From: Hirsutella rhossiliensis
Taxonomy: Eukaryota; Ascomycota; Sordariomycetes; Hypocreales; Ophiocordycipitaceae
DNA: 64,000 nt
Assembly: GCF_020360975.1 (NCBI RefSeq)
Contig: NW_025408686.1
Location: forward strand, 682,001-746,000
Direction of reading: 5' to 3'
Below are positions 3 to 56,601 of the stretch, in pieces. Position numbers and translations under genes: made by a program. Under the pieces are notes generated by a model. The model searched no databases, had not been told where the DNA came from, and saw only the letters and a program-made list of their open reading frames with translations. Positions within the stretch are counted from its first letter, which is position 1; each line of letters starts with the position of its first letter.

Positions 3-3000
3 GAGTACGACACGGCCCTCGACCCGGAGCACGGCGACTTCGACCTCGCAAAGTGGATTCGCCGCTTCATCGAGCAGCTCCAGGAGCAGGGTCTGACGGA
101 GCGGCGCACCAGCGTCGCCTTCCGCAAGCTCGACGTCTTCGGCTCCGGCTCCGCCCTTCAACTGCAGCAGACGGTCGGCTCTGTCCTCGCGGCCCCGCTG
201 CGCATGGGCGAGTTCTTCAGCTTCGGCAAGAAGGAGCCCAAGCAGATCCTCAGGAACTTTGAGGGCTTCCTCGCGAGCGGCGAGCTGCTCGTCGTCCTCG
301 GCCGGCCCGGGTCTGGCTGCAGCACTCTTCTCAAGACGCTGTGCGGCGAGCTGGAGGGCCTCGAGCTCGGCCAGCAGTCGAGCGTCCACTACAATGGCAT
401 CCCACAGCGACAAATGCAGCGCGAATTCAAGGGCGAGGCTGTCTACAACCAAGAGGTATGTGTGCCCTGTAGTTTCTCCTGCTTGTGGGTTGGCCGCGAC
501 TTGAATCAAAATAAAGGGGGGCAGGCTGTGGGATACAATGTAGGAGAACACGGACTGACAACTCAATCTCTCCCCGTCTAGGTCGACAAGCACTTCCCTC
601 ACCTCACCGTCGGCCAGACGCTCGAATTTGCGGCCTCGGCGCGCACGCCCTCGCACCGCATCCAGGGCATGTCGCGGCAAGAGTTCTGCCGCTACATTGC
701 GCGCGTGGTCATGGCCTCCTTTGGCCTGAGCCATACGTACAACACCAAGGTCGGCAATGACTTTGTGCGAGGCGTCTCGGGCGGCGAGAGGAAGCGCGTC
801 AGCATTGCCGAAATGGTCCTCGCCGGCTCGCCCATATCTGCTTGGGACAACAGGTTCGTCCCCTTGCCCCCCTCCCCTTTATGCAAACAGAAGTTGGCAT
901 CAAATCTATGCAAGGAAACGTGCCAACATGAGTAAACAGCACCCGCGGCCTCGACTCGGCAACGGCCCTCAAGTTTGTCCAGTCCCTGCGCATGGCGTGC
1001 GACTTTGGCTCACAGGCCAACGCCGTCGCCATCTACCAAGCCAGCCAGGCCATCTACGACCTCTTCGACAAGGCCACGGTCCTCTACGAGGGCCGGCAGA
1101 TCTACTTCGGCCCGGCCAGCCAGGCCAAGCGCTTCTTCGAGGAGCAGGGCTGGTACTGCCCCCCGCGCCAGACGACGGGCGACTTCCTCACCTCGGTCAC
1201 CAACGCGCAGGAGCGTAAGGCGCGCGATGGCATGGAGCAACGGGTGCCGCGGACGCCTGACGAGTTCGCCGCCTACTGGCACCGGTCGCCCGAATATCAG
1301 GCGCTGCAGGCCGACATCGACGCCCACGAGCAGGTCTACCTGGTCGAGCAGCAGGCCGAGACGGTGGCCCAGTTCCGGGAGCAAAAGAACTACCGGCAGG
1401 CCAAGCACGTCCGGCCCGGCTCGCCGTACCTCATCAGCATCTGGATGCAGATTGCGCTCAACACCAAGCGCGCCTACCAGCGCATGTGGAACGACATCTC
1501 GGCGACGCTGACGCAGACGGTGTCGCAGCTCGTCATGGCTCTCATCATCGGCTCCATCTTCTTCGGCACCCCTGACGCCTCTGCCGGCTTCTACTCAAAG
1601 GGTTCGGTCCTCTTCATGGCCGTGCTCATGAACGCCCTGACGGCCATCTCGGAAATCAGCAGCCTCTACGACCAGCGGCCCATTGTCGAAAAGCATCACT
1701 CCTATGCCTTTTACCATCCTGCCACCGAGGCCATGGCTGGTATCGCCGCCGACATACCCATCAAGTTTGTCACCTCGACCGTCTTCAACATCGTCCTCTA
1801 CTTCATGGCTGGCCTGCGCAGGGAGCCCGCTCAGTTCTTCCTCTACTTTCTCATTACCTACATGTCTATTTTTGTCATGAGCGCCGTCTTCAGGACCATG
1901 GCCGCCGCCACAAAGACCGTTTCGCAGGCTCTGGCTCTCTCGGGTGTCCTGGTCCTGGCTCTCGTCATCTATACTGGTTTCGCCATTCGAGTTCCTGAGA
2001 TGCATCCATGGTAGGTTCATGTCCGGCCCCCGTCCTTTGATTCGCTGCTTGCGCTGGTTGCATGTGCTGACTCTGGCTTGCCTGGAGGTTCTCGTGGATA
2101 CGATGGATCAACCCCATATTCTACGCCTTTGAGATTCTCATCGCCAACGAGTTCCATGGGCGCGAATTCACCTGCTCCAGCATCGTACCTCCATACTCGC
2201 CGCCCCGGGGCGACTCGTGGATCTGCCAAGTCGCCGGCGCCGTAGCCGGGCGGTCGACCGTGAGCGGCGACGCCTTCATCGCCGCCGACTACAGCTACTC
2301 GTACTCGCACGTCTGGCGCAACTTTGGCATCCTCTGTGCTTTCCTGGTGGCCTTTATGACCCTCTACTTCATCACCACTGAACTGAATTCTGCCACGTCG
2401 AGCACGGCCGAGGCCCTAGTCTTTCAGCGCGGTCACGTCCCCGAGTACCTCCAAAAGGGCAACGAAAAGGTAGTCCAGGAGGAGGGCGGAGCCGTAGGTG
2501 CCGCCGCGGACGAGCGCGAGACCAAGGGATCCGATGTATCCAACGTCGGGGGCTTGGCACCGCAAAATGATATCTTTACCTGGAGCGATATAATTTACCA
2601 CGTTGATATAAAGGGAGAGCAGCGCCAACTCCTCGACCACGTTTCGGGCTGGGTCAAGCCTGGGACACTGACAGCTCTCATGGGTGTTTCTGGCGCTGGC
2701 AAGACGACGCTTCTCGATGTGCTCGCCCAGCGGACCACCATGGGCGTTATTACGGGCGACATGCTGGTCAACGGAAAGCCCTTGGACCCCAGCTTCCAGC
2801 GCAAGACGGGCTACGTTCAACAGCAAGGTACGCTCACGTTCCGTCGGAATCATGAAGAGAACACAATAAACTGACTTGATGCCACGCGTAGATCTGCATC
2901 TCGAAACAGCGACAGTCCGCGAAAGCCTTCGGTTCAGCGCACTGCTCCGACAACCTCAGTCCGTCAGCCAGGAGGAAAAGTACGGCTTCGTGGAAGAAGT

Positions 3001-4670
3001 CATCAAGATGCTCAACATGGAGGACTTTGCCAACGCCGTCGTCGGCGTGCCGGGCGAAGGTCTCAACGTAGAGCAGCGCAAGCTGCTCACCATTGGCGTC
3101 GAGCTGGCGGCCAAGCCGAAGCTGCTGCTCTTCCTCGACGAGCCGACAAGCGGGCTCGACTCGCAGAGCTCGTGGGCCATCTGCGCCTTTCTCCGCAAGC
3201 TGGCCGACTCGGGCCAGGCCATCCTCTGCACCATCCACCAGCCCAGCGCAATCCTCTTCCAGGCTTTTGACCGGCTGCTCTTCCTGGCCCGCGGCGGCAA
3301 GACGGTCTACTTTGGCGACATTGGCGCAAATTCGCGAACCCTGCTCGACTACTTTGAATCGCACGGCGCCCGCCGCTGCGGCGACGACGAGAACCCGGCA
3401 GAGTACATGCTCGAGATGGTCAACGCCGGCACCAACGACCGCGGCCAGGACTGGCACTCAGTCTGGGGCTCGAGTCAGGAGGCCGAGGGTGTCCGGGCCG
3501 AGATGGAGCGGATCCACGCCGAAAAGCAGCAGGCTGCCGACGGCGACGGAGACGCGGACAGCCACGAGCACGCCGAGTTCGCCATGCCCTTCACGACCCA
3601 ACTCTGGGTTGTGTCGTACCGCGTGCTGCAGCAGTACTGGCGGATGCCGAACTATATCTTTGCCAAGTTTATGCTTGGCATTGTCGCTGGTCTTTTCATC
3701 GGCTTTACCTTTTTCAACGCCGACGGCACCCAGGCGGGCACGCAAAGCGTCATTTTTTCCGTCTTTATGCTCACCACCCTCTTCTCTACCCTTGTACAGC
3801 AGGTATGTCTTCCCTTGTTATGTCCTTCTTATTTGCATTCAGGGGAGTGTTTTACTGACCGCAGTTCTCTATCAGATACAACCTCTGTTCATCACGCAAC
3901 GCTCCCTGTACGAGGTCCGCGAGCGTCCGAGCAAGGCCTACTCGTGGAAGGCCTTCATCATCGCCAACATCATGGTCGAAATCCCCTACCAGATCGTTAC
4001 GGGCATCTTCATCTTCGCATGCTTCTACTACCCAGTCGTCGGCGTGCAGAGCTCCGAACGGCAGGGCCTGGTCCTGCTCTTCATCATCCAGCTGCTCATA
4101 TTCAGCTCTTCTTTTGCCCACATGACCATTGTCACCATGCCCGACGCCCACACGGCGGGCAGCGTCGTCACCATTCTGTCAATCATGAGTATCATCTTCA
4201 GCGGCGTTCTGCAGACGCCCGACGCGCTGCCCGGCTTCTGGATCTTCATGTACCGAGTCTCCCCCTTTTCCTACTGGATCAGCGGCATCGTGGCCACGGA
4301 ACTTCACGACCGGCCCATTACTTGCTCCGCCAAGGAGACTTCCATCTTCAATCCGCCCCAAGGCATGTCGTGCGCCCAGTACCTGGCGCCACTCCTTCAG
4401 CAGGCTCCGGGGCGGTTGCAGAACCCGGACGACATGTCGCAGTGCCGCTACTGCCCCGTCACCAATGCTGACCAGTCGCTGGCGGCGTCCAAGATTTTGT
4501 GGTCCGAACGCTGGCGCAACTATGGCATCTTCTGGGCCTTTATCGCTTTTAATGTTTTCACGGCCGTCCTGCTCTACTATTTGTTCCGAGTCAAGAGGTG
4601 GAATTCCAAGTCGTCTGGTCTTTCAAAACTCTTGTCTCGCTTCAAGAAGACCAAGAAAGGCGAGTCGTGA
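3..4670 (+). CDS. PDR-type (ABCG) full-length ABC transporter, 5' partial
   Basis: Plasma-membrane ATP-driven efflux pump of the pleiotropic drug resistance family; substrates cannot be read from sequence. Predicted exons are <3-455, 582-853, 940-2010, 2088-2827, 2892-3802 and 3876-4670, all with GT-AG introns and a continuous frame, giving 1413 visible residues; about 80-100 N-terminal residues lie outside the window (family about 1500). The order is NBD1-TMD1-NBD2-TMD2. NBD1 has the PDR-typical degenerate Walker [10 protein letters not shown] (visible residues 100-108, Lys replaced by Cys), signature [10 protein letters not shown], and Walker B split by the intron at 854-939 ([11 protein letters not shown]). 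NBD2 has canonical GVSGAGKTT (about 797), the degenerate signature LNVEQRK (about 902) and [12 protein letters not shown] (about 925). Hydrophobic segments follow each NBD. GC content is normal and there is no RIP damage. The family call is very secure. Confidence 0.97.
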
Positions 4671-5169: not shown

Positions 5170-7164
5170 TTATAGAGGAACAGGGAGATTCCTCTCCAAC
5201 GCCCCGCGCCAGGTAGGCAGCGTCCTCTTCCACTCGGTGCTCGACATGAGATCCTCGATGGCACTGCCCCATTTAACCAGCTCGTCATCTTTCCACGCAG
5301 TCTGCATGATGCCCAGTCCGATCCCCATGCCCGAGTCCTGGTGGACGCCGGCAGGCAGAGTGATCATGGGGTAGCCAGCCTGCGCGGCGATCTGGTAGCT
5401 CTGGCCCGGTTCCAGAGGCACCAGGAGACCATTGAGCTGCGTGCCGTTGTAATCGAGGGCCATGTCGATGCCTTCGCGCGCCATATTTTGGCGATAGTTG
5501 AGCGCCTCGTGGTATTTGGTGTCCTTCAGGCCCTTGGTGGCGAGGGATGCCTCCAGGCCGTCCTGGCCGGAGTAAAAGGCCGGATGAGATTGGGGGAAGC
5601 CGCCTTCGGTGCCGGAATAGCGCTTGTTGTAGTTCACAATGTCCTCGAGGGAGCACATTGGGGAGAACCTAAGCTTTTTGAGATAGTCGCTCAGGTTATT
5701 GTAAAAGTCGACCTTGATATAGGTGTACTCGGACCCTTCCGTCCCGTTTTTCTCTGGGTCGTGGCCAAAATCCCAGTCCCAGCCGGTAGGGCTCACAATC
5801 CGTTCATGGTTCTTAATCTCGGTCATATAATGAATGTTCGCGCCTTTCGCCCTGAGGAGGTCGACTACGCCCTTGAGGACGCGCCGCGTCTCTGTGTCCG
5901 TGTAAGTCCAGAAACTGTCCCATGGGATGCCAAAATTGGCCCCGACCAAGATTTCCTTCGTGCTCAACAGCTCTTCGAACCCTCCTCCGGGCAGTTTGAG
6001 CTTCTTCTGGTGCTCGGACATGGGGTCCAGTTCGTCGGGGCCGCGGATGGCGTCAAGGGGCAGGACGGCGTCGCGCACGGTACGGCCAAAGGTGCCAACC
6101 GAATCCTGATTTTCCGACTCGGGAATGACGCCGGCCCTCGAGGTCAGGCCGACGGTTGGCTTGAAGCCGACAATTTGGTTGCGCATGGCCGGGTTGATGA
6201 CTGCATCTTTCCATGTCAGAAACTGGATATCCGACACACGTGCAACGCAAACAAGGCCACTCGCAGCTCATGGAGGCAGAGACCTCCCAAATCTCACCAC
6301 TTACCGCTGCCGTCCGTCTCGGTGCCGATGGAAAAAGCAATGGCGTTGGCTGCCACGCCGACGGCGCTGCCGGAACTGCTGCCGCCCGGATTGACTGTCA
6401 GGTTGTAGGCGCTCCGGCACTGGCCGCCGCGAGGCGAGTAGCCCTCGGAGTAGTTGGAGCTTCGCATGTCGGCCCATTCGCTCATGGTAGCTTTGCCAAA
6501 TAGGACCGCGCCGGATTTGCGGAGCCTTTCCACGACCGTGGCGTCGCGATGCGGACGGCTGCCCAGCAGCGCCCAGCTGCCGGCCGTCGTCTCCATCAAG
6601 TCGTTGGTGGCGATGTTGTCCTTGACTGTAAACGGAATACCATGCAGCGGGCCACGGGGCCCCGTACACCTTCGCTCCCTGTCAAGGTCCATGGCAATGT
6701 CCATCACGTCTGGGTTTTCCTGCATGACGGAGCTTTGAGTTTGCGGAGGAACCGGGCCCGGCCGGTGTCAGCTCTTCCAGCCCGAGACGGCATGTGTGTG
6801 TACTTAAATGCATTGCAGCTCCAGCGGCGAGCCGCGGGATGTAGGGGTCAGACATTAGATGGGACGGAGTCAGGACTCACTTGAGATACGGCTTCGTCTG
6901 AAAAGTCCGCTTGAGATAGCAGCTGACGAGCTTGGCCGAAGTCAGCCACCCGTCCTCCATGGCCTTCTGCATCTGCGCGATGGTAGCCTCCTCCAGCGTG
7001 AAGTCCGCGCACTTGGACATGACCAGGTGCTCCGGCAGTTTGGCATTGTTTTCCGACACAGACAATGGCACGCCGTTGCAGTAGCCATCCTTGGGCGTAT
7101 CTCCCGTCAGGCCTACCGCTGCTGATGCGAGCAGGCCCAACAACTGAAAAGGGCGCAGGGGCAT
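5170..7164 (-). CDS. Secreted amidase-signature family hydrolase
   Basis: Hydrolyses amide bonds (amidase signature superfamily); the precise substrate is unknown. Predicted exons on the minus strand are 7164-6881, 6732-6305 and 6200-5170, with donors GTGAGT and GTAAGT. The joined frame is 580 aa, normal for fungal amidases. The N terminus MPLRPFQLLGLLASAAVGLTG looks like a cleavable signal peptide. The Ser-cisSer-Lys triad is present: Lys132 in FTVKDNI, cis-Ser213 in NPGGSSSGS, and nucleophile Ser237 in GTETDGSV. The last motif is completed only across intron 2, which supports the junction (DGS-VINPA), and VGFKPTVGLTSR follows. It is convergent with the ABC transporter. Its start is only 277 bp from the truncated copia element at 7441, so its promoter is short or element-derived. 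Confidence 0.93.
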
Positions 7165-14889: not shown

Positions 14890-16512
14890 TTAGCAGCCAA
14901 AGACTAAGAACTTACTGGCCGATAAGTCCAGCGAATAGGTTCGAAACAGTCTAAATAAGTGTTCTGTTACTACTGTCTAAAATTATACCGGTAGAAATAG
15001 ATTAAGCTAGTATTTAGGAATCGCTTACGCACTAGAAATTCCAGCCGTATTAGTATTTTACTTATATTAAATCCTTTATAATAATAAGATAAAAACTTAC
15101 TTTCTAGTGGCTATATATTAGTATAGTTCTAGTAGTTAATTAGTTTTATAGAGTATAAATATATACTTTCTATTTTAGATCGCTAGATTAGTATATTACT
15201 TAAGGCGTATATTGCCTCTTATATAGAAATACTTACACACTGTAAACACTATAATTGCCCACTCTATTAGTATATAGCTCGTAGTTAAGCAGAGGTTAGT
15301 AATTATAGAGTAAATACTTACCCGCTAAGTTTAGTTTTTATTAGTATTTCTTCTTATGCCTAGGTTGCTGTTTTCAATACTTACAAACTATAATCCCTCA
15401 GCTTATTTAGTATATACTATTTAAGAGGATTAAATGCTCTTAATTACGCACCGCCTAAAATTAAGGTTTTGTTAATATCCGGCTGGTAGCCTAAGCAGCT
15501 ATCCTTATTAAAGTTCCTTACCATCTAAGAAGATATATTAATACTTCTATCGCAGTTAAGGTATATAGCTTGTATAGATATAATCACTTACAAGCTGAGG
15601 TTATATGTATTAGCATGCTCCTAGAGGATAAGATAAAGCGTATTGCCGGAAAATGCTTACGAGCTATTTTAATAAAACAAGTCAGTATGCTTATAGTAGT
15701 TTGTGATTCTAGTTATCGCAAGGTGAACACCTACACACTAGATTTGCAGCTTATGTTAGTGTGCTCCTAGCAGTTGGCAAATGGGTTGCGCAGCAAACAC
15801 TCACATGCTGCAGTCACCAGGTATGTTAGCATGTTAGTCGTCGTAAGGGGGTTTGGTTTATGAGAAAATGCATGCTTACACACTAGATCCGTCGGCTATA
15901 TTAGCTTGCTACTCGCAAAGAGACATCGTCGGTGGTTGGACGAGCACCCACATCCTAAGTCGTATATAGTAAGCATGCTGGCAAGAGTTCAGAAAAATTG
16001 ACCATATAGTACTCACATTCTAGAGACGCCACTATATCAGTACGCATGATAGTGGTCAAGAGACATATCCTATGAAAGATGAATACTAACGCACTGCATC
16101 CATCGGCTGTATTAGTGAATCGGTAGTAGATGAGAACGCGAATTGCCAGCAGTAGCAGTAGTCAGGCTTTTTTGCCTATTCGGCACCTACAAACTGGAGT
16201 TGCCAGTCCTGTCAATGCACTGCTACCCGTTGCGGGACGTTCGGAATCGTGGATGATATTAACTTACTAGTTCATGTTTCTATAGTCACCAGCTATATTA
16301 GCATGGGCACTGGTGGCCGTATGCAACTGCGGTTGCACCTACGCTCTGAAACCACCAGTTATGTCAATACGTCACCTAGCAGTCCAGTCACGCACGCCTC
16401 CGATGGCAAAATGGTCACTCACCGGCGGTTTTTTCCGGTCGGCTGCCTCCAGTGATGGCATCGCTAGGGTCAATCCAGCCAGGGCCGTGAGGTAGAAAAG
16501 GATCGGTTGCAT
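14890..16512 (-). CDS. Secreted Cys-rich peptide encoded by 21 exons, 18 of them single codons (micro-exon gene)
   Basis: Unrecognised gene; model from splice signals. Exon 1 is 16512-16423 (90 nt; N terminus MQPILFYLTALAGLTLA is signal-peptide-like, then a basic RKK). Next (start-end: residue): 16345-16343 S; 16279-16268 K,H,E,L; 16193-16191 F; 16093-16091 C; 16019-16017 N; 15954-15952 D; 15882-15880 C; 15807-15805 H; 15737-15735 C; 15663-15661 L; 15594-15592 L; 15524-15522 M; 15454-15452 A; 15387-15385 F; 15324-15322 R; 15239-15237 C; 15169-15167 K; 15103-15101 K; 15031-15029 C; final exon 14976-14890 (28 codons, TAA). All 20 introns are GT-AG, 52-97 nt (mean 69), with 6 GTAAGT donors, 3 each of GTGAGT, GTAGGT and GTAAGC, and CTAAT/CTGAC-like branch sites 13-25 nt before most acceptors. 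Every intron is phase 0. The product has 80 aa and six Cys. Exons 3 and 17 have alternative acceptors. Function unknown; secreted effector or signalling peptide is an inference. Confidence 0.72.
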
Positions 16513-19512: not shown

Positions 19513-20843
19513 TCAAGACACACGCTTTAGGAAGTCGAAGAACCCCTTCGGGAGGTTTTTCTTCTCCTTCTCCAACCGGTCCAGCGCAGCGAAAACTTCT
19601 TTGTCGGTGAAGCCTGCGACACGCACGCCCTTCTTTATATACGGTATTGGTATAATGCGCCCGCCAGTTATACTTAATACTTTCTATATAAGTCCCGTTA
19701 GAGCAGAAATAGGTTTTAAGTCCACATTAGGGTATCATAGACGTACCTCGCGTGTAGATACCAGGCCACCGCTCGTATGCTGCAGCGCCTCGTTTTCCTT
19801 TAGTAATGCCGTGGCGAAATCCAAAACGGTATCAAACTTGGCTGTAACCTCGGTCGGCCTGCATCTGTATGGGATCCTCTCGTTTTGGAATAAGTGCCGG
19901 ATGCAGTAGAATGCTAGATCTGTGCCTTTTTGCGCAGGGTTATAAGTGCCAAGCAGCATGCCGACCTCGAGAGCACCATACGCGGCGGCTTCATCGTCGT
20001 ACTTGGTCCTGGGGTTGCGTTTCCTCTCCGCCGCAATGCGGGCGAGCTTAGCCAAGCCGAGGCACTTGGGCGTCATTTTCCCACACTTCCTCAATGAGTT
20101 TAGGGTGACGTTCCAGGCCGCGGGGTCAAGGACTCTAAGGTCGCCCTGCGAGCGGTCTTTGCGCGAGTAGCTGCAGTCGTGCTCGATGCCGAACTCCTCG
20201 CTCTGAACTTCCTCCAAGTCAAATGTAGCGTTGAGGCCGCGCTTGCTCTCCATCAGTCCGTCGGCCGTGATGAGGGCGCTCGATACCGGAGAGACGCCGA
20301 GTCCCCGAAAGCACGCGACAATGATATCCAGCATATTGACTTTTCTCCCGGAATGAGGGAGAAAGCCATGGTTAGCGAGCGTATTTAATCCCGGGCACGA
20401 GCTGCGAGCTAAAGCATGTACGTTAGACACCTTGCTCTCGCCAATACAACCGGATGTCTTTTCCCTTGGGAAAAAAATTTAGAGGGAAATATATATTTAC
20501 AGTCACCACGCCTGGGAGGAGCCCAAGTTGAGAATAACGGATCTGCCGGGTCTATAATCGGCCTGTGCTCTGGAAGGTGATAAGTGGGCGGACCGGGCAT
20601 ATACCACCAGCACTTCCTCTTCCATTGATTGGCATCGCCGTCTTTTGTAGCCGACCCATGGAAGAAAGAGCCAAATAAAGGGATTTTGTGGCCAAAGCAA
20701 ATCGCCTGCTCGTAAGCCTTATGAAAGAAAGAAGATGGATCGAAACCAGTCCCGGCCTGGGCCTCGACCCTCACTGACGTCGTGTCCGATAGAGGAGTCG
20801 CGGTTCGGAGCGCGACGAAGATGGCGCAAAGCTGTAGCTTCAT
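19513..20843 (-). CDS. Secreted heme-thiolate peroxidase (chloroperoxidase / unspecific peroxygenase family)
   Basis: Members of this family use H2O2 to halogenate or oxygenate organic substrates and are usually extracellular. Predicted exons on the minus strand are 20843-20501, 20408-19747 and 19683-19513; introns (92 and 63 nt) begin GTAAAT and GTACGT, and the product is 391 aa. The join at intron 1 makes RGDS-RSSCPGLNTLANHG, the family motif around the heme-ligating Cys (Cys119; the usual PCP is SCP here), followed by FLPHSGR. The acid-base motif Glu190-His-Asp lies in GIEHDCSYSR. The N terminus MKLQLCAIFVALRTATPLSD looks like a signal peptide, but the 115 residues before the Cys motif are longer than usual. 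The C-terminal exon (FTDKEVFAALDRLEKE) is less certain. It is convergent with the small secreted protein gene. Substrate unknown. Confidence 0.83.
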
Positions 20844-24271: not shown

Positions 24272-27200
24272 GGGTAAGTGCCCCCCCGCCAACGGGACCT
24301 AGCCCGGACCCGACTTAGGACCCCGGCATAGACCTAAGGAGGGCCCCCTTAACTTTAACCCCTTAACCTAAGGGTCGAAATAAGCACCTTAGAGGCTAGG
24401 GCTTACTTAGAAGAAGCTTTAGAAGGCGTTAGCCTTCTAAGGACCTTAAAAGAAAGGCCTAGGACCTAAGACTAGGACTTAAAGGATATTAAGATAGAAG
24501 ATAATACCTAGCCTATATTAAAGACTAGCTGCTTTAGGCTTAGCCTAGCCCCGCCTTAGGCTAGCTACTTCTAGCTTAACTAGCCCTTAAAGTAAGTAAA
24601 GGGGTAAAAGAGAGCTGCCTTTAGTAGCTTTATTTATAAGGGAATATATATTATAGTACGATTAGTTAGGTAGTAGAGATAGCTAAAGGTACTACGCTAT
24701 ATATATTATATTCTCCTCGTTATAAGACTAAAGCTTACGAGAAGAGGGATTTCTCCTCTTTTATTAGAGTAGCGAGTAGTCTATAATAAGCGAGCGGGGT
24801 AGGTACGATTCCTTACTAATACCCTACTAATATATTAGTACTATATACCTAAGTGCTTTATTAGCCCGTACCTCTTAGTAGCGCTTTTATAACTATCTCC
24901 CCTCTTATATAGACGTCTTAGCTATATCTTTAATATATATTACTTTCGCTATACTATATATATTTAGTTAGGAAAAGAGGTAGTTTTAGGTATATATCGC
25001 GCGTATATAACGACTAGTATTATACTTAAGGGATAAACCTATCGAGGGGTTTATATTAGTAGATATAATAGGGCGTGGTCTAAGCAATAATATATATATT
25101 ATATTAGTAATAAGTTAGAGGTTATAGACTATAGACTATAACTAGGTAATTAAAATTAGAGATAGAATCGTAATATAGATCTATATTAAAAGCTAGAGAG
25201 CTATCTATCTAAAGGAGTAAAAGTAGGTAGCTATATATACCTATAGAGACTATTCTTAGATTACGGTCCTAGCTATAATCCCTTTTATAGCTTACTATAG
25301 CTTACTTATAAGCTATACTCCTAAGTAGTAATCTATCTATATAAGGCTTACTTAGCTTATATATACTCTAGGTAAGCTAAGCCTAAGTAACTTCTTATCC
25401 TAACTATTATTCCGAGCCGCCTTATTATATAAACGTAACCGGCTCTTTTATAGCCCGCTAACTATCGTCGTAATATAATATCTCCCCTCCTTTTAGTCTT
25501 ATCTATAAAACCTACTACTACCTTAGCCGCCGTATATAAATATACCCTTATCGCGTATATATATATTCCCTATTTCGTCCTTTCTATCCCTTAGGATATA
25601 CTACTAATAGTATATCTAGTCGCGTATCGAAGGATCGTTCTTATAAGACCCTTAAGCGTATTTATTTAGCTAAGTCTATTAATCGTTTTAGTTTCGACGT
25701 TATACTATATTCTTTCTATACGTTACGCGGCTTCTACTATAAAATACTAAAGAAATCTTTTAATTATACTAAATATATATAGCGGGGTCGTTCTTATAAT
25801 ACATCGGGCGTAGCGATTAGCTCTTATAGGTAACTTCGTTATCCTACTTATTATTTATAGTTAATATATTTCCTAGTATCCTAAATAAATCTAGAGTCCG
25901 ATCGACTAGATAAAAAAGAAGAAATTACTAAGGAGCGAATATTAAAAGCTTAAGCTAACCTTAATAAAGCCTTAGCTTATTTAGCGCGGCTTCGCCGTTA
26001 AAAGTACTAGCTAAAGATAAGGGGTACCGAGATAGTCTATTAAGGCCTTCGTTCCTTAGATAACCTTAAAGAGGCTAAGCGCTAAGAATCTAAAGCGGTA
26101 GTTAATATTTAGTTTATAAGTAGATTTAATATAATTAAATAAAATACTATTAGTTTATTAAGCGATTTTATAATACCTAAGGTAGATTTTACTAGTAAAA
26201 CTATTAAAGTAGAGAACTATAGTAGGTTAAGTACTTAAGTAGTTCCTAGGTATTTTCTTTTAGTTTATATCCCTTTTACTTAATAAGGTATTCTTATTAT
26301 TAATCTTATTTTCTTATATTTAGTATTTATTTTACTTTATATTCTTAATTATTATCGACTTTAATTTTTTCCTATAATTTAGCGTTTTATAGCGCTAGTT
26401 CTAATAATAAGATATAAAATACTAGGTATATCTATATTATTATTAGTAGCGAAAGTTTATAGTTAACTTTTAAAATAGTTTTCTTAACTTTAAACGGTCT
26501 AAGTTTCTTAAAATCTAACTTATTACTTAGTTATTTTATTTTAATATTTTATTATATAAGGTAGACTATATCTCCCTCTTAAAAGATTAGTTCTTATAAT
26601 CTTTTTAATTATAGTAAGTAGATATTTATTTACTAATAAATTAAAGTTTTTATTATATTTCTTTATATAATTTCTATAGCTAATCTACTTATAGTATCGC
26701 TTATTCTACTTATAGTCCTTATTAAGTAACCTTAAATACTTCTAGGTTATATCTATAATTAGCGTATACTAGTAAGAGCTTAGTTATTTTTATAACTAAG
26801 CTATTATAAGCTAGTTACGCTATTAGTAGCTATTTAACTTAATCGTTTTATTTATAGCTAATATAGTATTATAAATATTATTTAAGCGTTTAGTTAAGTT
26901 ATTTTATTTATCTATTTATTTATAGGTAATAAGCTATACTAAGCTTATATTTCGTCCTTAATTATACTATAAGAGCTTACTAAAACTTAGCTATAAGCGT
27001 ACTTTTTTTATTAAAGATAATCTCGTTTAATAGTCTATAATTACTAAGAATAGTTTATAGGAATATTTATACTAGCTCTTTTATATTACCTACTTCTTTA
27101 TATAGTAAGAAGTACTTATACTTTATTAGTTTATTAGTAATAATAAATATACTATTATACTTAATATTAGTTATAAGTTCTTTTAATAGTAGTAGTTTTA

Positions 27201-27766
27201 TAATATAATTAAAAGCTATTAAATCCTTTAGTTTCTTTAGTACTAGTAGCGGTTATAATTCTCTATATAGTTTATATCGTTTAGCTTTACTTTATATATA
27301 AAGTTTATATTCTTTAATAACTTATTATACTACTTCTTTAAACTATAAGAAGTTATATTATCGTTTAATCTATTTTATTATTCTTTAGATTCCTTAGTAT
27401 CTATATATTAAATATTCGTATATATCTTATATAACTTTATCTTATAATTCTAATAGTATCTAGATTTTATTTTTATATATTAAAACTTCTAAAGATTTTA
27501 TATTATATCCGTTTAATACTTTATATTCTTTTATTTATTTTAAGATCTTTTAATATATTAAGTCGTTAGGTTATACTTTAAATATTATATTTAGCTATTA
27601 TTACTAGTAGTTTTTATTTTTATTTATTTCTAAGAGCTATCCTTTTATTATAGGTGCTCTTATATTATAGTTACTTTATTAACTAAGGGTACTAGCTTAA
27701 CTATTTTCTATTCCTTTTTTATAGATTATTTTATAGTCGAATTCTAATAAGTATTCGGCCTATTAG
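24272..27766 (-). mobile_element. gypsy-2, piece 1: 3' part of a RIPped Ty3/gypsy element
   Basis: Very AT-rich and almost without CpA/TpG. Read on the minus strand, the sequence next to 27766 encodes the end of a Ty3/gypsy RNase H (A-E-Y-L-L-E-F-D-Y-K near 27760). It continues across the copia-B insertion at 34122, so pieces 1-4 are one element. Integrase should lie towards 26200-27600 but is too decayed to mark domains. 24272-25430 contains another protein-like plus-strand stretch (LEARAYLEEALEGVSLLRTL near 24390) that I cannot name. The outer LTR of this element was not identified, so the left boundary is approximate. Confidence 0.6.
25570..26140 (+). pseudogene. RIP-decayed ORF antisense to gypsy-2, coiled-coil protein
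   Basis: In one plus-strand frame, with only RIP-type stops, a Ser/Arg-rich start and a RRGRS-like basic stretch (about 25770) are followed by a Glu/Leu/Arg-rich heptad-like region (LDKKEEITKERILKA near 25900, ARLRR near 25985, GLRSLDNLKEAKR near 26050). This suggests a coiled coil. It lies 3' of pol and antisense to it, the same position as the antisense ORF in gypsy-1. No biochemical role is known to me. Confidence 0.5.
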
Positions 27767-28251
27767 TCTCGCGTAGAGAGATATAAGAAATATATAAAAA
27801 TATACGAAGGTAAAATTAAAGGTAAGGGGTTAGATAGGTAAGGCAGAGAGATTTAATTCTTATAGGAGTAGTAATAAAGGTAGGGGAGTAATTATTATAT
27901 TACCTTTATTATCCTTCTTTCCTTTATCTAACGCCCTTTTTTATACCTATCTAGTATCTTAATTAATAAAGAAGATCCTACTTAAAGAAGTTACTAATAT
28001 CTTTTTAACTACTAAGCTTTTTATTAGTTTTTCCCCTCTTTTCTAGCCGTTACCGGTATATCCGTCTTATCTCTTACTACCTTTATAGGAAACTATTGCT
28101 ACTTCTACTTCCCCTTATACCCCTACCCTCCTTTCTATACCTCTTTTTAGCTCCTTCTTCCTACTTCTATACTAAGTGTTTTTAGCTTCCTTAGTCCCTC
28201 CTACTAAGGGATATCTCTAAGAACTACGAAATTAAGACACGCTTCGCGATA
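27767..28251 (-). repeat. 3' LTR of copia-B
   Basis: 485 bp; on the plus strand it starts TCTCGCGTAGAG and ends CTTCGCGATA, the inverse of the family termini TGTCGCGAAG...CTTCGCGAGA. Confidence 0.9.
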
Positions 28252-31200
28252 TACCCCCTTAGCTATAGCCTGCCCCTTAAAGGCATAGCTAATACGGCTT
28301 TAGGCTAGTAAGTATATAAAGGAGGTTCTTAGCTTTATACTTCTCCCTTTACTCGAGGAAAGCAAGGGCCCTTTTAGGTCCCTAGGCTCTTTTAGACCTA
28401 CTTAAGAAATAGGGGCCTAAAGAGGGGAAAGTCCTATAAGAAAGGGGGCCTTCTTAGAAGGGAAAAACCTAATTAAATAGGGGTCCCTCTAAAAGGAAAC
28501 ACCTCGTCTTTTTCTTTAGCTATAGACGTTACCTTCTTATACGTGCTATTAGCTCTTCTTATAGACTCTTAAGGCGGGCTTCTAAAGATAGCTTTTCTTA
28601 AACGTCTTCTAGCCTAATTTACTATAAAAAGATAGCTAGCGTTTACTTTAGTAGGGGCTTTATAAGACCGTTAGCTTTTATCGATACTATTAGAACCTAA
28701 TAAACGGAAATAAGTCCCCTTTAAACTTCTTAGCGTAACTAATACTAATAGATATTAATATACTATAGCTAGGTCGATAGCTTACTATTTTCCTCTATAA
28801 GAATTTATATAGTCTATATATTATTATATTCTATAGTTAATAGGGTCGGAATTTATAGTTATAGAGATATTAATAGCTAGCTAAGGAAAATCGCTTCTTT
28901 TAATGCTTTTAAAAGAGCTAGTAGCTTTACCTCTATACTCGAGGTTATAATAATGGCTTACTTTAAAGCTCTCTAAATAATAGTTCCTTTAAAAAGGGAT
29001 ATAATATACCCCTATAAGCTCTTTCTATCTAAGGAATTATCTATAAAGGACGAATCGCTTAAATAAAGGAAGATTTAGGTAGCTTATTTCCTTCCCTACC
29101 CTCCTAAGCGTAGACTATATAATCTCGTTAAATAGAGATAAAGGATAGCTCGGTCTACTACTTCTTAGTGCCTAGGGCTAGGATTCTAGTTATACCTAGC
29201 TAGCTAGGAGACCGTAAAAGAGATATCCGGTCTAATAGAAATAGCTAAAAAAGGTAAGGAACCTACCTTTTATTAATATTAGGATTTCTCTTACTCCCTA
29301 GCTTAAAAAGATAGATTAAGTAAAAGCCCTTTGTTTAATATAAGTATAAAGGGAAGCTTCTTATTAAGGGAATTAAGGAGGAATTTTTAAGCGACCTTAT
29401 TGATATAAGCGTCCTAGGTAAGCTAGATAGTCCGTTAGGACCTATTTTAAAGGATTTATATCCTTAGGAACTACTTTAGCTCCCTTAGCCTAGTTATCTT
29501 ATACCTTTATTATAGGCCTTATATAGCCTCCTTAGTAGTAGCTTCTTCCTCTTTTAGGTAGGCTTAGATAATATTATCGACGTAGAAGAAGACTATAATT
29601 TTACCCTTTTATATTATATATAGTTCCTAAGGGACTTTCTTAAAGCCTAGGGCTTTAAGGGAACCTATTAAATACTATTACTAAAGAAGGGGTAATCTTC
29701 ATAGTCCGTATAAAGCTTTCTTAAGCTATAGAGCCTTTCCTAGCTATTAGAAACTAAGAGGAAGTCGTATATAAATAACTTCTTCTTCCTTAACTAAGTA
29801 GTTAATAAAAGCGTTAACTATATCTATTTAATCGAGTTCGAGGTCGAATTCTACTACTATAGCTATAAGGGTCTAAAAAGACATCCCTACTAAGGTAGTT
29901 ACCTTAGTAGGAAGATCCCCTTTTTCTTACTAGTTCCTATAAATAACTAGCTAAGCTTTATACTTTTAAAGGAAGCCGTATTTATTAGTCTTATAGATAA
30001 AGACCTACTTATAGCTAAGGACCTATTTTCCTCTTACTTTTTCCTTAAGGACCTCTTTAAAAGACCCTATCTCCTTATATAAGGCTAGGTAGTCTTTCTA
30101 GGCCTAGAAAAACTAGTCTTTAAAAGGGTGTTTTTCTAGCTACTTTTAGTTTACTAGTAGGTCTAGGAGGTCTCTTTTATATACCTGCCTTACTAATAGT
30201 AGCTTAAAACGCCGGCCTAGTATAAACACTCTATAGGAACCGTCTTTTATTAGCGTTAGGTAGAAGTTAGAAAAACGATTAAAATAAGGGAAATATTAGT
30301 CTTTTTTAGTAACTATATCGGGCCCTATACCTTCCTTTACTTCTCGAAGTAGGGATAAAAAGGCAGCTAGGTAATCCTTTAAGAGAGGTGCCTTTCCTAC
30401 CCCCTAAGGGGTCGAGATAGAAAGACTAATAAAGAAAGCTACTTTTAGATCTTCTTCTTATTCTATAAGAGGAGGCGTAGGAAGGAAGGTAGGCGTATTT
30501 TAGCTCTACTGCTTTCCTATAGTCTCCTTCTTTGTTTAGATTATCTAATCTAATAGCTTCCTCTTCCTTTTCTTCCTTAAAGTTAGCGTTATCCTTAACT
30601 ACTTCGACGTTAGTTTCTTCTTCTATTTCCTTATCTAGGGCCTCTTCTTATAACTATTAAGAAGGGGGGATTTAAATATTTTAAATTAGCTAACGTTATA
30701 AGAGTAAGAGGGGCTATTAATCCCTCTTTCTATTAAAGAATCTAGATTCGTCGAAAATTATATCCTTAGTCGAAATAACCTTTTATAGAAGAGGAATCTA
30801 AATCTAAAAGATATTTATAGAATTATAACTAATAAGGTAACTAATAAAGGCTCTAAGATTAAGCTTTCTTTCCTTCTTCCTTTTTAGCTATATATCGGTA
30901 GTTATAGCGTATACCTTATAGCCGTAGGTATAAAGGTAGGCTAGCGAGGCCCTCTTTTTTATAAAGAGCTCGAGTAGTAATTTCTAATCTATTCCTTAGG
31001 TCTTAATAAGGGTCTCTAGGTCCCTATAGTCCCTTAGGCCCCTAGGGTCCCTTAAGGTCCGGTTCTAAAGGTAATAGGCGGTCTTAACGACTTCCCTTTA
31101 AAGGTTATATAAAAGCCTTATAGTAAGTCTTATTATATAAGCCCTTTCTATTATAATACCCCTTAATCTTTCTACCCCTCTATTCTAGGCCTAGGTATTC

Positions 31201-33631
31201 GGTGCTAATAGGAGGTATAAAATGCCCCTTTTTTAAAGATATTTAAAGATATCCTTTATAAATAGCTCTCTATTAAACTATAGCTTCTTTACCTTATAGC
31301 TAAAGTAGGATTTTATTTAGTTAATAAAGTCCTAGAAGGTAAACTAGTTATACTTACTTAGGTAGGTCTATAAGAAATAAGGGAAAACTATCCTTAAAAA
31401 AGCATCTATAAAAAACATTACTCTAATAAAGCTTTCCTAGTCCTTAGAGATATCGGTCTAGTCGACCTAAATTTCCTTATATAGCTAGTCCGGCTATATA
31501 AGGGTCCGTCTAGAAATTCGTCTCTTAGTCTTTCCTTAGCTATAGTATTTATATTCGATAGTCTTTAGGCCCCCTATTCGTACGCCCTATTATAGGCCTA
31601 GCTTATATAAAGCTAAGGGGCCCAGGTAACTAAGTTATACGTGCTAAAGAAGACCGTCTCTTTAGGCTGCTAGAAGAGGGTCCTTTATAGTAGACCTATT
31701 CCTCTTAGTAGGGAAAGCTAACTTCTTAAGTAGTTCCTTCCTATAAATAGGTTAGAATTCGAGAATAAATTAACCGACCTTTTTCTCGATATGCCTAATA
31801 GTCTAATTCTTCTAGACTAGCCTCGTAGGCTTAGACGTTATATCCTAGAAGATTCCTTCCTTTTAAAAAAGGCGGAAGGAAATTAAGCTTATTAAAAATC
31901 AAGGGCAAAAAGCTACCCTTTTTTATCGAAGAAATTATATAGACCTATTAGGTAATTTTATCGTAAAATTCACCCTTCTATATCCCTCTATCTATATAGT
32001 TAATTCCCCGGCAATAATATATTCCTTTTATACCCTCTTAAAGGACTAAAATCGTAAGAGTATATTATAGATATTAAGGGAAGTACTAAAGTTAAGGATA
32101 GCTGATTTTTATAGGGGATAGTTAGAGGGTCTTAACGGTTAGTCTTACTAATCTATAGGGAAGATAAATACTAGATTTACTATACTAACGATTTTCCCTT
32201 AAATTTACGGCTTAAATAAGGGCAGCGTTATTATTAGTTACTATTTCTTAGTAACTTAAATCTTATCTATCTTTTTCTATAACGAGGGGTCCTCCTTAAA
32301 AGACTATTATACTATTTCTTATAGCCTCTTTAAAGGGTTAATTCCTTTAGGTCGGTTTTCCTTAAAGACCTACTAGTAGTCTTCTAGCCGATAGGGCTTT
32401 TTATATACTTAGTAGGTCGGTCGATTCCTCCTTATTTATTTCTTCGAGGAATCCTTATCCTAGTCTAGAAGGTCTGCTTTAAAAACCCTTTCTTTTTACC
32501 CCTTATTACTAATTTTAATAAAGAGGTTCGATTTTAATTAGTTCCCTGATTTTTCGACTAACGGACTAATAGGTCTATTAAGGGACTAGTAGGGCCGGTT
32601 TAACTAATAGGGCCGGGGCCGGACCCGGAATAAAATATATAGCTAGGGCTAGGGCAGCAGCTATAGTTAACGATAGCGTTAAGGCTCTCGAAGGAGGAGG
32701 AGCTAAAGGAGTAATAGTAGTAGTAGTAGTAGCGGGAGCTATAGTAATAAGGGCTATAGGTCGAACCGTCTAAGTCGAGTACTAGCTATAAAAGAATAAG
32801 ACTACTTACTATTATACTTTAGTAGCCTCTTTATTTAGTTCCTAGCTAGCTTCTTAAAAGATAGTTAAGTAACCGTTACTAATAGGCTTTATTAATAGAG
32901 ATATATCCTATAGCTACTAGCTAGAAAGAGCTTTTATAAGGAAGTATTAGTTAGCTTCCTTAAGGATTTCTTCTTACTTAGCTAGCTATAAAGAAGCTAG
33001 TAGGTTCCTAGCTAAAAAGGCTCCTAGGTATACTATATAGGTCTTCTTAATACGGTTAGTTATATAGCCCCTTAAGGGAGCTATTAAGGTCTCGAGCTTT
33101 AAAAGCTACTACTTAGGAGTCTCTTCCTCTTAAAGAGAGATTAGCTTTATAGTACTAACGGATTCCGTTATCGCTATACGTATAGTAGTTAGTAGCCTCG
33201 TCTTATAGAGGTACTACTTTCGGTAACTCTTATAGTCGCCTAAGGTAGTAGAAAAAGCTCTTTACTATATAGCGGTTAGCTCGGAAAAGAGGGTAGCTCC
33301 CTTTATAAAGTCTATTACCCTAAGATAAAGAGGGGGCTTAGGAGGGTCCTACTTATTAAAGAAGATTAAATTATAGATAGTCCTATTTATATAAGCCTAT
33401 AGCTCCTTTACCTACTTATCTTAATCTTAGGGCTTTACTAGAATCGTCTTATAGACTATAGGGATAGTAAAGGAGTTAGTTTTCGTTATTATTATAGGGA
33501 AGGGTAAAAGAGTTAAGTAAAAATTAGCTTTTTTAATAAGAGGGGTAAAAGGAAGCTATAAGGGATATAAGAAAGGTGCCTTTTATAGTAGCCGGAAAGT
33601 ATAAAAATACTATTCGTCCTTAGCTTATAAC

Positions 33632-34116
33632 TCTTACGTAGAGAGATATAAGACGTATATAAAAATATATAAAGGTAAAATTAAAGGTAAGGGGTTAGAT
33701 AGGTAAGGCAGAGAGATTTAATTCTTATAAGGGTAGTAATTATAGTAAGGGATTAATTATTATATTGCTTTAATTATCCTTCTTTCCTTTATCTAACGCC
33801 CTTTTTTATACCTATCTAGCACTTTAATTAATAAAGAAGATCTTACTTAAAGAAGCTATTAATATCCTTTTAACTACCGAGCTTTTTACTAGTTTTTTCC
33901 CTCTTTTCTAGCTATTACTAGTATATCCGTTTTATCTTTTACTACCTTTATAAGAAGCTATCGCTTCTTTTACTTCCCCTTATACCCCTACCCTCCTTTC
34001 TATACCTCTTTTTAGCTCCTTCTTTCTTTTTCTATACTAAGTGTTTTTAGCTTCCTTAGTCCCTCTTACTAAGGGATATCTCTAAGAACTACGAAATTAA
34101 GCTACGCTTCGTAATA
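33632..34116 (-). repeat. 5' LTR of copia-B
   Basis: 485 bp; starts TCTTACGTAGAG and ends CTTCGTAATA on the plus strand. Differences from the partner LTR are mostly C/T and G/A, as expected from RIP. Confidence 0.9.
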
Positions 34117-34121
34117 ATTAG

Positions 34122-35036
34122 ATCTATTATCCGTTTAACTATTATATTATTATAAAGTATAAGATATTCTTATAATCTATATAGACTTTAACTTTATATT
34201 TACTTTTAAAAAGGTAGTATTAAAATTCCTTAAAAGCTTAAATAATTATAAGGAATTCCTTATTATAAATAAGGTAATTAAGTTCTATACTATATAGCTT
34301 TTTTAAGTAAAATATAATTAGTTATAGTCTTCCTTTATTATCTTTTTATTTAATTTATACTCTTAGAGTAAAGTCTAATATATTAGTTTTAAGTTTAATT
34401 TATTGTTTTAAATTAAAGGTAGTTAAGACTAGTTTAAATATAATTATAGTCTTAATATAATCGAAAGCTTCGTTAGCTTTATCGTCCTATATAAATTCTT
34501 TTTTCTTCTTTATTAAGTTATATAGTAGTATTATAATCTTTCTAAAATCTTTAATAAATTATTAGTAGTAATTTATAAATCCTAGGAAACTTTATACGTC
34601 CTTAATATTTTTTAGTATTAGCTATTCTTAAACTAAGTTAATCTTATCTTATTATATTTATATCTCTCTTAATAAGATTATATATTTAAGGAAGTCTACT
34701 TCCTATATATAGAACTTACTTTTCTTTAGTTTAACTAGTAACTTTATATTCTAAAGTATATAGAGTACCTTATAGATATATTCCTTATATTCTTCTAAGG
34801 TATCTAAGTAGATTAGGATATTATCTAAGTATATTACTATAAAGATATCTAAGTATTTACGTAGGATATTATTAATTATTTATTAAAAGGTAGCTAGTAT
34901 ATTTATAAGTTTAAATAGTATTACTAGATATTTAAATAGTTTAAATTTCGTTCTAAAAGCTATTATCTATTTATATACCTTTTTTATACGTATTAAGTTA
35001 TAAGCGCCTTTAAAGTTAAGGGCTATAAACTATTTT
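34122..35036 (-). mobile_element. gypsy-2, piece 2: reverse transcriptase region
   Basis: On the minus strand, N-F-K-G-A-Y-N-L-I-R-I (about 34990-35020) is the Ty3/gypsy RT motif normally written D-L-x-G-A-Y. The F-x-x-Y-Y...F-I-K-D-F block after the RT palm lies near 34545-34590. It is heavily RIPped, lies between copia-B and copia-D, and continues at 48153. Confidence 0.75.
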
Positions 35037-35522
35037 TATCGCGAAGTATAGCTTAATTTTATAGTTCTTAAAGATATCCCTTAGTATAAGGGACTAAGGA
35101 AGCTAAAAACACCTAGTATAAAAGAAAGAAGAAGGAGCTAAAAAGAGGTATAGAAAGGAGGGTAGGGGTATAAAGGGAAGTAAAAGTAGTAATAGCTTCC
35201 TATAAAGGTAGCGAGAGATAAGATAGATATATTAGCAACGGCTAGAAAAGAGGGGAAAAACTAGTAAAAAGCTTAGTAGTTGAAAGGATATTAATAGCTT
35301 CTTTAAGTAGGATCTTCTTTATTAATTAAGATACTAGATAGGTATAAAGAGAGGCGTTAGATAAAGGAAAGAAGGAAAATTAAGGAAATATAATAATTAC
35401 TCCCCTACCTTAATTACTGCCCCTATAAGAACTAAATAGCTTAGCCCTACCTATCTACCCCCTTACTTTTACTTTTACCTTTATATATTTTATATATACT
35501 TCTTATATCTCTCTTTAAAAGA
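35037..35522 (+). repeat. 5' LTR of copia-D
   Basis: 486 bp, starting TATCGCGAAG and ending CTTTAAAAGA (RIP forms of the family termini), the same length as the LTRs at 47667 and 58527. Confidence 0.88.
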
Positions 35523-38500: not shown

Positions 38501-39957
38501 AACTAACGTCGAAGTAGTTAAGGATAACGCTAACTTTAAAGAAAAAGAGGAAGCTACTAAATTAGATAATTTAAATAAAGAAGGAAACTATAGGAAAGTA
38601 GTAGAGCTAAAATACGCCTACCTTCCTACGCCTCTTCTTATAAAATAAATAGAAGATCTAAAAGTAGCTTTTTCTATTAGTCTTCTTATATTAACCCTTA
38701 AGGGGGTAGGAAAGGTACCTCTCTTAAAGGATTACCTAGCTGCTTTTTTATCCTTACTTTAAGAAGTAAAGGAAGGTATAGGGCCTAATACGGTTACTAA
38801 AGAAGACTAACCTCTCCCTTATTTCGATTGTTTTTCTAACTTCTATTTAACGCCTATAAAAGATAGTTCCTATAAAGCATTTATAGTAGGCCGGCTCTTT
38901 AAGCTATAGCTATTAGTAAGGAAGGTATATAAAAGAGACCTCCTAGACCTACTAGTAAACTAAAAGCAGCTAGAAAGACACCCTTATAAAGACTAGTTTT
39001 TCTAGGCCTAGAAAGACTACCTAGCTTTATATAAAGAGATAAGGTCTTTTAAAGAGGTCCTTAAAGAAAAGGTAAGAGGAAAATAGGTCCTTAGCTATAA
39101 GTAGGTCTTTATCTATAAGACTAATAAATATAGCTTCCTTTAAAAGTATAAAGCCTAGCTAGTTATCTATAGGAATTAATAGGAAAAAGGGGATTTACCT
39201 ACTAAGGCAACTACCTTAGTAAGGATATCTTTTTAGACCCTTATAGATATAGTAGTAGAATTCGACCTTAAGCTAGATTAAATAGATATAGTTAACGCCT
39301 TTATTAACTACCTACTTAAGGAAGAAGAAGTTATCTATATACGCCTTCTACTAAGCTTTTAAAAGCTAGGAAAGGTTCTATAGCTTAGGAAAGCTTTATA
39401 TAAACTATAAAGATTACCCTCTCTTTAGTAATAGTATTTAATAGGTTCCCTTAAAGCCTTAGGCTTTAAAAATATCCCTTAAGAACTATATATAATATAG
39501 AAGGGTAAAATCATAGTCTTCTTCTATATTAATAATATTATCTAGGCCTACTTAAAAGAGAAAGAAGCTATTACTAAGGAGGCTATATAAAGCCTATAAT
39601 AAAGGTATAAGATAACTAAGCTAAGGGAGCTTAAGTAGTTCCTAAGGATATAAATCCTTTAGAATAGGTCTTAACGGACTATCTAGCTTACCTAAGACGC
39701 CTATATCGATAAGGTTACTTATAAATTCCTCCTTAATTCCCTCGATAAGAAGCTTCCCTTTATACTTATATTAAACGAGGAGCTTTTACTTAATCCGTCC
39801 TTTTAAGCTTGGGAGTAAGAGAAATACTAATATTAATAGAAGGTAGGCTCCTTACTTTTTTTTTAGCTATTTCTATTAAACCGGATATCTCTTTTACGGT
39901 CTCTTAGCTAGCTAGGTATAACTAGAATCCTAGCTCTAGATATTAAGAAGTAATAGA
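35037..39957 (+). mobile_element. copia-D, left part (5' LTR, gag, most of pol)
   Basis: RIPped Ty1/copia element inserted in gypsy-2. The 5' LTR is 35037-35522 (486 bp), then the primer-binding region (GTTATAAG), gag at about 35580-37080 and pol. It is cut at 39957 by gypsy-1 and continues at 46738. The flanks ATTTT (35032-35036) and ATTCT (48153-48157) are a probable 5-bp target duplication with one mismatch. Confidence 0.88.
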
Positions 39958-40143
39958 TATAAGAGTCTTTAACTATTATAGGTAATAGGCTTAGGCCGCG
40001 GCCTAAGCCGTGTAGTTACGTGCGGAGGGCCGGATCCCGTAAGTATAGGGGCGGGCCAGCCGCGTATAGAAGAGCTCTATATAGCTTGTTAACATCATCC
40101 TACGGACGGCACCTACGCACACGCCTCTACCTACTCCGTGATA
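39958..40143 (+). repeat. 5' LTR of gypsy-1
   Basis: 186 bp. It contains a perfect 22-bp palindrome at 39988-40009 (half-site GGCTTAGGCCG). It differs from the 3' LTR only by transitions, by eye. Confidence 0.93.
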
Positions 40144-54924: not shown

Positions 54925-55127
54925 TGTCGGGAGGTCTGTACTGCAGTAACGCAATGGGTTGTATTCAAGATGTCTTGCTAGGAAGGGAGGAAAGGGAATG
55001 AGGGGGCACACTACGTGCCCTTTATACACGGATCCCCGAGGTCCATACACGTGACGCTAAGGGTCACGTGTGCGTGTGTGCGCACCTCCCTTACAATCCT
55101 ACTATAGCTATATGCTACATTCCCACA
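54925..55127 (-). repeat. 5' LTR of copia-E
   Basis: 203 bp, identical by eye to the 3' LTR. On the minus strand a TATAAA (55021-55026) follows the E-box inverted repeat (55047-55071), a plausible promoter for the genomic RNA. Confidence 0.95.
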
Positions 55128-56415: not shown

Positions 56416-56601
56416 TATTATAGAGTAAGTAAAGGTATATATATAGGTACTATTTATAAGATAATATTAATAAGCTATATAGAGCTCTCTTATATATAGC
56501 TAGCCTATATATATATATATAAGATCCGGCCCTCTATATATAACTATATAGCTTAGGCTATAGCCTAAGCCTATAACTTATAATAGTTAAAGACTCTTAT
56601 A
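56416..56601 (-). repeat. 3' LTR of gypsy-1b
   Basis: 186 bp; on the minus strand it begins TATAAGAGTC and ends ATAATA. The palindrome is retained in RIPped form at 56551-56570. Confidence 0.88.

Follow-up and report, generated by a model that had tools for sequence, protein, structure and literature searches.

A family of predicted genes built mostly of single-codon exons in the genome of Hirsutella rhossiliensis

Examining a 64,000-nucleotide stretch of the Hirsutella rhossiliensis genome (contig NW_025408686.1, positions 682,001 to 746,000; hereafter the window), we found that a minus-strand locus running from position 16512 to 14890 very probably belongs to a gene family with runs of predicted exons of exactly three bases. 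Introns of about 70 bases lie between these exons, whose joining, one codon at a time, would yield a small, cysteine-rich and likely secreted peptide. The evidence comes from the sequence of one genome, splicing, secretion and function being predictions throughout. An earlier, sequence-only reading of the window had proposed a real gene composed mostly of single-codon exons at this place, a proposal that gains support from similar arrays elsewhere in the genome and from contiguous relatives of one of them.

The predicted gene opens with an exon 1 (16423..16512, minus strand as for all exons below) of 30 codons from the ATG (MQPILFYLTALAGLTLAMPSLEAADRKKPP), which resembles a signal peptide by eye and whose sole match in the genome is itself. 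The following span (14977..16422) holds 20 introns of 52-97 bases and the intervening exons, of which 17 measure three bases and two measure 12 bases in a frame-aware parse. In order, these exons are AGC (Ser, 16343..16345), the 12-base exon KHEL (AAACATGAACTA, 16268..16279), TTT (Phe, 16191..16193), TGC (Cys, 16091..16093), AAT (Asn, 16017..16019), GAT (Asp, 15952..15954), TGT (Cys, 15880..15882), CAT (His, 15805..15807), TGT (Cys, 15735..15737), CTC (Leu, 15661..15663), CTT (Leu, 15592..15594), ATG (Met, 15522..15524), GCG (Ala, 15452..15454), TTT (Phe, 15385..15387), CGG (Arg, 15322..15324), the 12-base exon CLQC (TGTTTACAGTGT, 15237..15248), AAA (Lys, 15167..15169), AAA (Lys, 15101..15103) and TGC (Cys, 15029..15031). 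A predicted terminal exon of 28 codons and a TAA (14890..14976) closes the gene.

The donors, acceptors and codons of the array were all confirmed at the places given by the sequence-only reading, and its intron sizes and GT...AG ends hold for 20 introns out of 20. Likewise, its claim that most introns carry a branch-like motif is borne out by a branch-site-like YTRAY lying 12-20 bases before the intron end in 17 of the 20, the motif being absent at the usual distance in introns 6, 14 and 20. Its tally of 18 single-codon exons and one exon of 12 bases needs revision, 17 three-base and two twelve-base exons giving a better account of the same array. The difference lies in intron 16, for which an end at 15249 appears more likely, because the branch site there keeps its usual distance; the TGT that would stand alone (15237-15239) with the downstream AG thus falls inside the predicted CLQC exon. 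Consequently, the cysteines, previously put at five of 18 single codons, become four of 17, plus the two within CLQC. The donor of intron 18, which follows the AAA exon at 15167-15169, is a weak GTATAT, and skipping this exon would preserve the frame. The terminal exon is the least certain part of the model: its frame is indeed open for 28 codons to the TAA as had been described, but the acceptor (14977) is doubtful because its sole YTRAY lies 25 bases away. Under weak generic signals, AG-NNN-GT units at the locus chained up to 11 in a row, against a maximum of three in 1000 dinucleotide shuffles and of two in 64 other tiles of the window. Parsing the gene without the frame rule still gave 13 internal exons of three bases out of 17 and two of 12 bases, along with two wrong exons of 17 and 7 bases.

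A DNA search of the 81.8-Mb genome matched the window array to itself only. By contrast, searches for the intron-codon-intron cassette returned 261 clustered matches versus 15 for the reversed pattern, a second cassette pattern giving 85, also clustered, versus 31 in its reversed control. These clusters, with a spacing of about 70 bases, occur at least on contigs C3, C5, C6, C8, C10, C13 and C18, besides C20. They correspond to arrays of 10 to 74 single-codon exons on seven contigs besides that of the window, namely L043 on C6 (74), L046 on C13 (43), L045 on C10 (41), L035 on C18 (34), L036 on C5 (33), L042 on C8 (32) and L037 on C3 (18). Three more stretches of C8, with 10, 42 and 10 single-codon exons, form one 13-kb cluster (C8:1040001-1053300), bounded by a signal-like exon 1 on one side and by the hairpin described below on the other. 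They may represent one gene split by insertions, possibly corresponding to the gaps of about 3 and 3.6 kb. Contigs C1 and C19 also carry members, L049 (parsed with six single codons) and L062, respectively, and six loci are broken or partial (L034, L039, L044, L055, L057 and L058), L034 and L044 being too broken to be modelled. The AG-NNN-GT frames, whose conservation in related loci the sequence-only reading had expected, are kept at these other loci of the same genome, where introns and codons differ.

The three-base exon length was recovered when it was left free. Allowing internal exons of 1-60 bases over 14 stretches, 310 of 314 came out at exactly three bases and none at six or nine, with site scores trained on three-base cassettes but donor and acceptor scored apart; with untrained consensus signals only, the figure was 243 of 253. 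Under these same consensus signals, chains reached at most three introns in 280 shuffles and two in 34 other window tiles, and among 60 strands of other loci the longest chain, of four, was in L011; as this locus overlaps array L049, it does not serve as a control, and the second-longest chain reached two. The splice signals themselves are strong and regular: GTAAGT accounts for 238 of 303 donors in eight loci, and 280 of 327 cassettes from 14 stretches have a 14-base gap from CTRAY to YAG. A stop codon opens the terminal exon in L036, L039/L040, L042, L043, L045, L046, L051, L055, L057 and L058; this is not general, since L035, L037, L038 and the window gene carry codons ahead of the stop.

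Many arrays are also followed by a conserved 3' UTR hairpin, whose core (CGTTGTATGGAGTTCTCC) has 16 exact sites in the genome and none in the reversed control; eight of these 16 lie behind arrays and three more behind short arrays. The hairpin stands behind the arrays of L034, L036, L039, L040, L042, L043, L045, L046, L055, L057 and L058, and is also present in L052, L053, L054 and L056. Across 10 distinct hairpin sequences, five of 18 pairs display changes on both sides, one of these five being unpaired in seven of the 10 sequences. Searching six family loci against Rfam returned zero matches. Two of the hairpins sit just after long frames that have no array, in L052 (minus strand, 352-726) and L053 (plus strand, 1906-3096), so the hairpin may mark regulation common to these two loci and the array genes.

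Because the array units are repeats of similar sequence, and exon 1 could join the terminal exon directly, the arrays might instead be minisatellites of an intron-derived repeat that is removed as one large intron, its codons never being read. We regard this explanation as highly improbable on several grounds, the first being the lack of stops. In a parse permitting stops (11 stretches with at least 10 introns, where 341 of 354 internal exons are of three bases), none of the 341 single codons is a stop, against 8.1 expected from independent base frequencies, and leaving out the near-copy L046 gives 0 in 298 codons against 7.5 expected. The constrained parse (354 single codons) forbids stops and was left out of this test. 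In comparison, each of 39 intron-interior registers of the same units, which are mutually dependent owing to the repeated units, contains one or more stops, with a mean of 19.8. The lack of an internal stop noted in the sequence-only reading, correct for its 18 codons, has little weight alone, the family-wide count being the stronger argument. Cysteine is encoded by 54 of the 298 single codons, against 26.5 expected.

The pattern of variation likewise argues against removal of the array as one large intron. In L042, L043 and L045, codon positions 1 and 2 are the most variable of the unit, exceeding the flanking splice signals, while in the window array, L035 and L036 intron drift is nearly as large as codon drift. 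Introns of young arrays are nearly identical, unlike their codons. Mean divergence per site in L045 amounts to 0.58 for codons and 0.05 for introns, and pairs of units with identical introns carry different codons in 10 of 15 cases in L045, nine of 11 in L046 and one of two in L043; in L042 and in L038, the sole identical-intron pair has identical codons (0 of 1 each). Moreover, a TAA opens the terminal exon in L043, L045 and L046, so skipping the whole array would leave only signal and propeptide.

In our view, the best proof that the single codons are read together comes from the match of the L043 codon order to contiguous frames on three contigs, which also weighs against removal of the array in one piece. 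Unbroken reading frames followed by the hairpin were found in L054 (C10) and, in two copies, in L056 (C13), to which a protein search added the C19 locus L062 and, on C6, the fragment L065. Over their first 32 residues the contiguous members are similar to exon 1 of L043 and L045, after which they continue free of introns. In alignments with the 74 stitched codons of L043, residue identity in the mature part is 41 of 73 for L054, of which 33 also have the codon in common, 37 of 62 (29) for L056 copy a and 39 of 59 (31) for L062. The corresponding alignment scores of 215, 159 and 196 stand far from the maxima reached with 2000 random orders of the residues in each case, of 80, 77 and 76, respectively. 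In addition, the stop codon of L054 coincides with the start of the last exon in L043 and L051. The single-codon reading is thus credible, since contiguous relatives of the same genome spell a similar peptide. L062 (C19:663157-663468) is itself a mosaic, made of a long exon, an 11-codon exon, a single codon and a stop-first exon divided by introns of the array type; L065/L051 (C6:3594373 onward) is a mosaic copy of the same kind, without the 5' part. The frames of L054, L056 and L062 use TGT for cysteine and mostly GGT for glycine, unlike five window frames, which pooled lean to TGC and GGC.

A search of the genome for a contiguous relative of L035 matched only its own exons, and the same was observed for the window product among the scored genome candidates. 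The predicted splicing of the window gene therefore rests on its intact signals and its family resemblance. In its 80-residue form, the product shares three 5-residue words with zero of 5.8 billion proteins. The window introns are old, with a divergence of 0.62 per site over eight comparable pairs. The family being real, the window copy might have decayed and lost its ability to make a peptide, as would fit its weak donor GTATAT, its two 12-base exons, its doubtful terminal exon, the lack of any close match to the hairpin core between 14001 and 17500, and its AT-rich surroundings. Such decay nevertheless seems unlikely, given that despite this divergence (about 0.62 per site) 20 introns out of 20 keep GT and AG, 17 keep the branch-like motif, and the frame contains no stop.

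Taking the array genes as read codon by codon, introns of about 70 bases would be recognized across the intron, by ordinary intron definition, and removed one after another, since three bases hardly offer room for the factors of two flanking introns at once. With each removal, the upstream exon would gain a codon and the next donor would become free. As all single-codon exons are in phase 0, skipping one of them would cost a single residue without shifting the frame. Pairing between the two ends of an intron is not supported, the duplex energies of own ends ranking first over those of swapped ends in only two of eight loci (L042 and L045); whole-intron folding did not surpass that of shuffled sequences either, mean z values in eight loci ranging from -0.65 to 0.56.

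The history of the arrays is best documented by L045 and L046, which are recent copies with 99.5% identity over 1002 bases of the 5' region and an identical 3' flank over 454 bases; an ungapped 5'-flank identity of 0.42 was discarded as an offset artefact resolved by gapped alignment. The first 24 and the last nine units carry the same codons in the two arrays and enclose a middle block of eight units (GGGGLGGP) in L045 and of 10 units (LLNDHLPGGP) in L046, and units 25-27 of L045, in this block, have introns identical to those of its upstream units 11-13. From these differing blocks and repeated unit introns, whole units appear to have been exchanged or shuffled. Recombination between the repeated introns would grow, shrink and reshuffle arrays, each recombined unit adding, removing or moving exactly one residue and leaving the frame unbroken.

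The even three-base spacing favours an origin by duplication of intron-codon units, the contiguous members probably being spliced messages copied back into DNA. Upstream of the ATG, L056 shares only 56 bases (copy a) or 30 bases (copy b) with L043, as it might in a retrocopy, and the downstream similarity of copy a extends about 160 bases beyond that of copy b. Intron loss through cDNA is usually strongest at the 3' end. A cDNA origin of the contiguous members is not clear-cut, because L054 and L062 have promoter sequence in common with L043 and L062 keeps 3' introns. The opposite course, in which the contiguous genes are ancestral and an introner-like intron was inserted at every codon boundary, concerns the origin of the genes and not how they are read, and we hold it to be possible, if rather doubtful. 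It would account for near-identical introns with non-identical codons, for the partly divided L062 and for the promoter sequence that L054 and L062 share with L043, so identical introns with different codons and the common promoter are compatible with insertion as well. Against it, more than 70 insertions would be needed in one gene, all at codon boundaries (310 of 314 exons being of three bases), and exon 1 is whole in the members modelled. Furthermore, the 3'-end motif of the introns has 144 matches in the genome and, among the 100 listed, 99 fall in family loci and a single one (C1:3441096) outside. Another repeat, containing CTAATCCGTCCTTTTAAGCTAGGGAGTAAG, is frequent among 100 matches listed (on C1, C2, C3 and elsewhere) and looks unrelated to the arrays.

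Regarding the products, exon 1 is signal-peptide-like by eye in the window gene, L035, L036, L037, L041, L043, L045, L046 and L049; the search for such an exon in L042 found none. A KR follows the signal-like region in L041, L043, L045, L046, L054, L056 and L062, which we take to be a Kex2-type site. Exon 1 would supply the signal peptide, to which several members would add a propeptide with this KR at its end, so the mature peptide would derive wholly or almost wholly from single-codon exons. The products of L035 (CLQNGGQCYSSRSCCPGSRCKPIGGAYVYLIAGRCMPRNA) and L036 (ACTPIFQKCGFRIPPCCKGLICKGVGSKTCRKP, a doubtful 12-base exon being left out) both display the cysteine spacing C-x6-C-x5/6-CC-x4-C, presumably that of the inhibitor cystine knot (knottin) with its six cysteines and CC pair. 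Permuted codon orders also fit this spacing in 1.0% (L035) and 1.3% (L036) of cases, the test covering two of nine products, chosen by eye. Cysteine patterns differ from these two in the other family products. Against Pfam, none of the nine products matched a family at the cut-off (best 18.9 bits versus a cut-off of 21), including L035 and L036, whose Pfam and PDB matches are weak and below cut-off. The PDB gave no match for the L043 product and no convincing one for that of L046, and a protein database offered no candidate for the L043 product when queried with a superseded exon 1. To our knowledge, no knottin gene has a comparable structure. We expect the products to be secreted peptides that would act towards hosts, competitors or the fungus itself.

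An exon of three bases probably comes close to the lower limit of spliceosomal exon definition, and the reported examples are isolated ones. Schistosome MEG genes have secreted products and many small exons of multiple-of-three length, none being known with fewer than six bases; we know of none with a run of three-base exons or with repeated intron units. The present family resembles MEG and bicycle-type genes in having a first exon that looks signal-peptide-like by eye, followed by many small exons in one phase, L042 excepted. Aphid bicycle genes are described as putative effectors with about 17 small exons on average, in one phase, and megacycle genes as encoding about 2000 residues from more than 100 microexons (PMC9168663). 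Bicycle exons start in phase 2 according to the same source, whereas the single-codon exons here are in phase 0, and the megacycle figures imply exons of tens of bases, against single codons and tandemly repeated introns here.

Even smaller exons are described in two other papers: a single-base exon in Fusarium CYP621A, for which an intronless relative served as mRNA stand-in (PMC12940212), and single-base exons in plant APC11 and VPS55, intronless APC11 copies being read as intron loss through reverse transcription (PMC8831610). Each concerns one tiny exon in an ordinary gene, in contrast with genes built of them; the contiguous relatives are used here by the same logic as the intronless CYP621 relatives. 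Likewise, introner-like elements (PMC4457414) and the sister stwintrons of Hypoxylaceae (PMC8469720) are near-identical introns multiplied in fungal genomes; those occupy new positions in many genes, while the present introns stand in tandem, one codon apart, within one family. The arrays are distinct from stwintrons, where an internal intron splits a splice element of the external one: their donors and acceptors are whole, with three-base exons between them. A literature search, incomplete and without bioRxiv, returned no gene with a run of three-base or single-codon exons; its match for "3 bp exons" (PMC12308204) deals with mitochondrial genes, and PMC7821500 with a detection limit.

If real, a gene with up to 74 such exons requires dozens of faithful and ordered splicing events for a peptide of about 100 residues, which would make these genes well suited to studying exon definition, recursive splicing, intron origin and minimal exon size. 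Because contiguous members coexist with mosaic and fully divided ones in a single genome, intron gain, intron loss and unit shuffling can also be compared directly. Tentatively, and as something quite conceivable, we suggest that the family could form a peptide-diversifying system of single-residue resolution. Recombination between the repeated introns would add, drop or swap intron-bounded residue units with the frame unbroken, and each exon skipped in the RNA would remove a single residue, so that the secreted peptides of one gene might form a library. Genes of this type escape ORF finders and challenge standard read aligners, which means that small secreted peptides encoded in such a way may be absent from fungal annotations.

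Elsewhere in the window, family matches were obtained for a PDR-type ABC transporter (932-4471), an amidase (5170-6267) and a Peroxidase_2 protein (19735-20478). AT-rich stretches with a G+C of 20-36% (25001-40000, 47001-49000 and 55001-57000) lie beside stretches of about 50-60%, an alternation also seen in fungal genomes with repeat-induced mutation.
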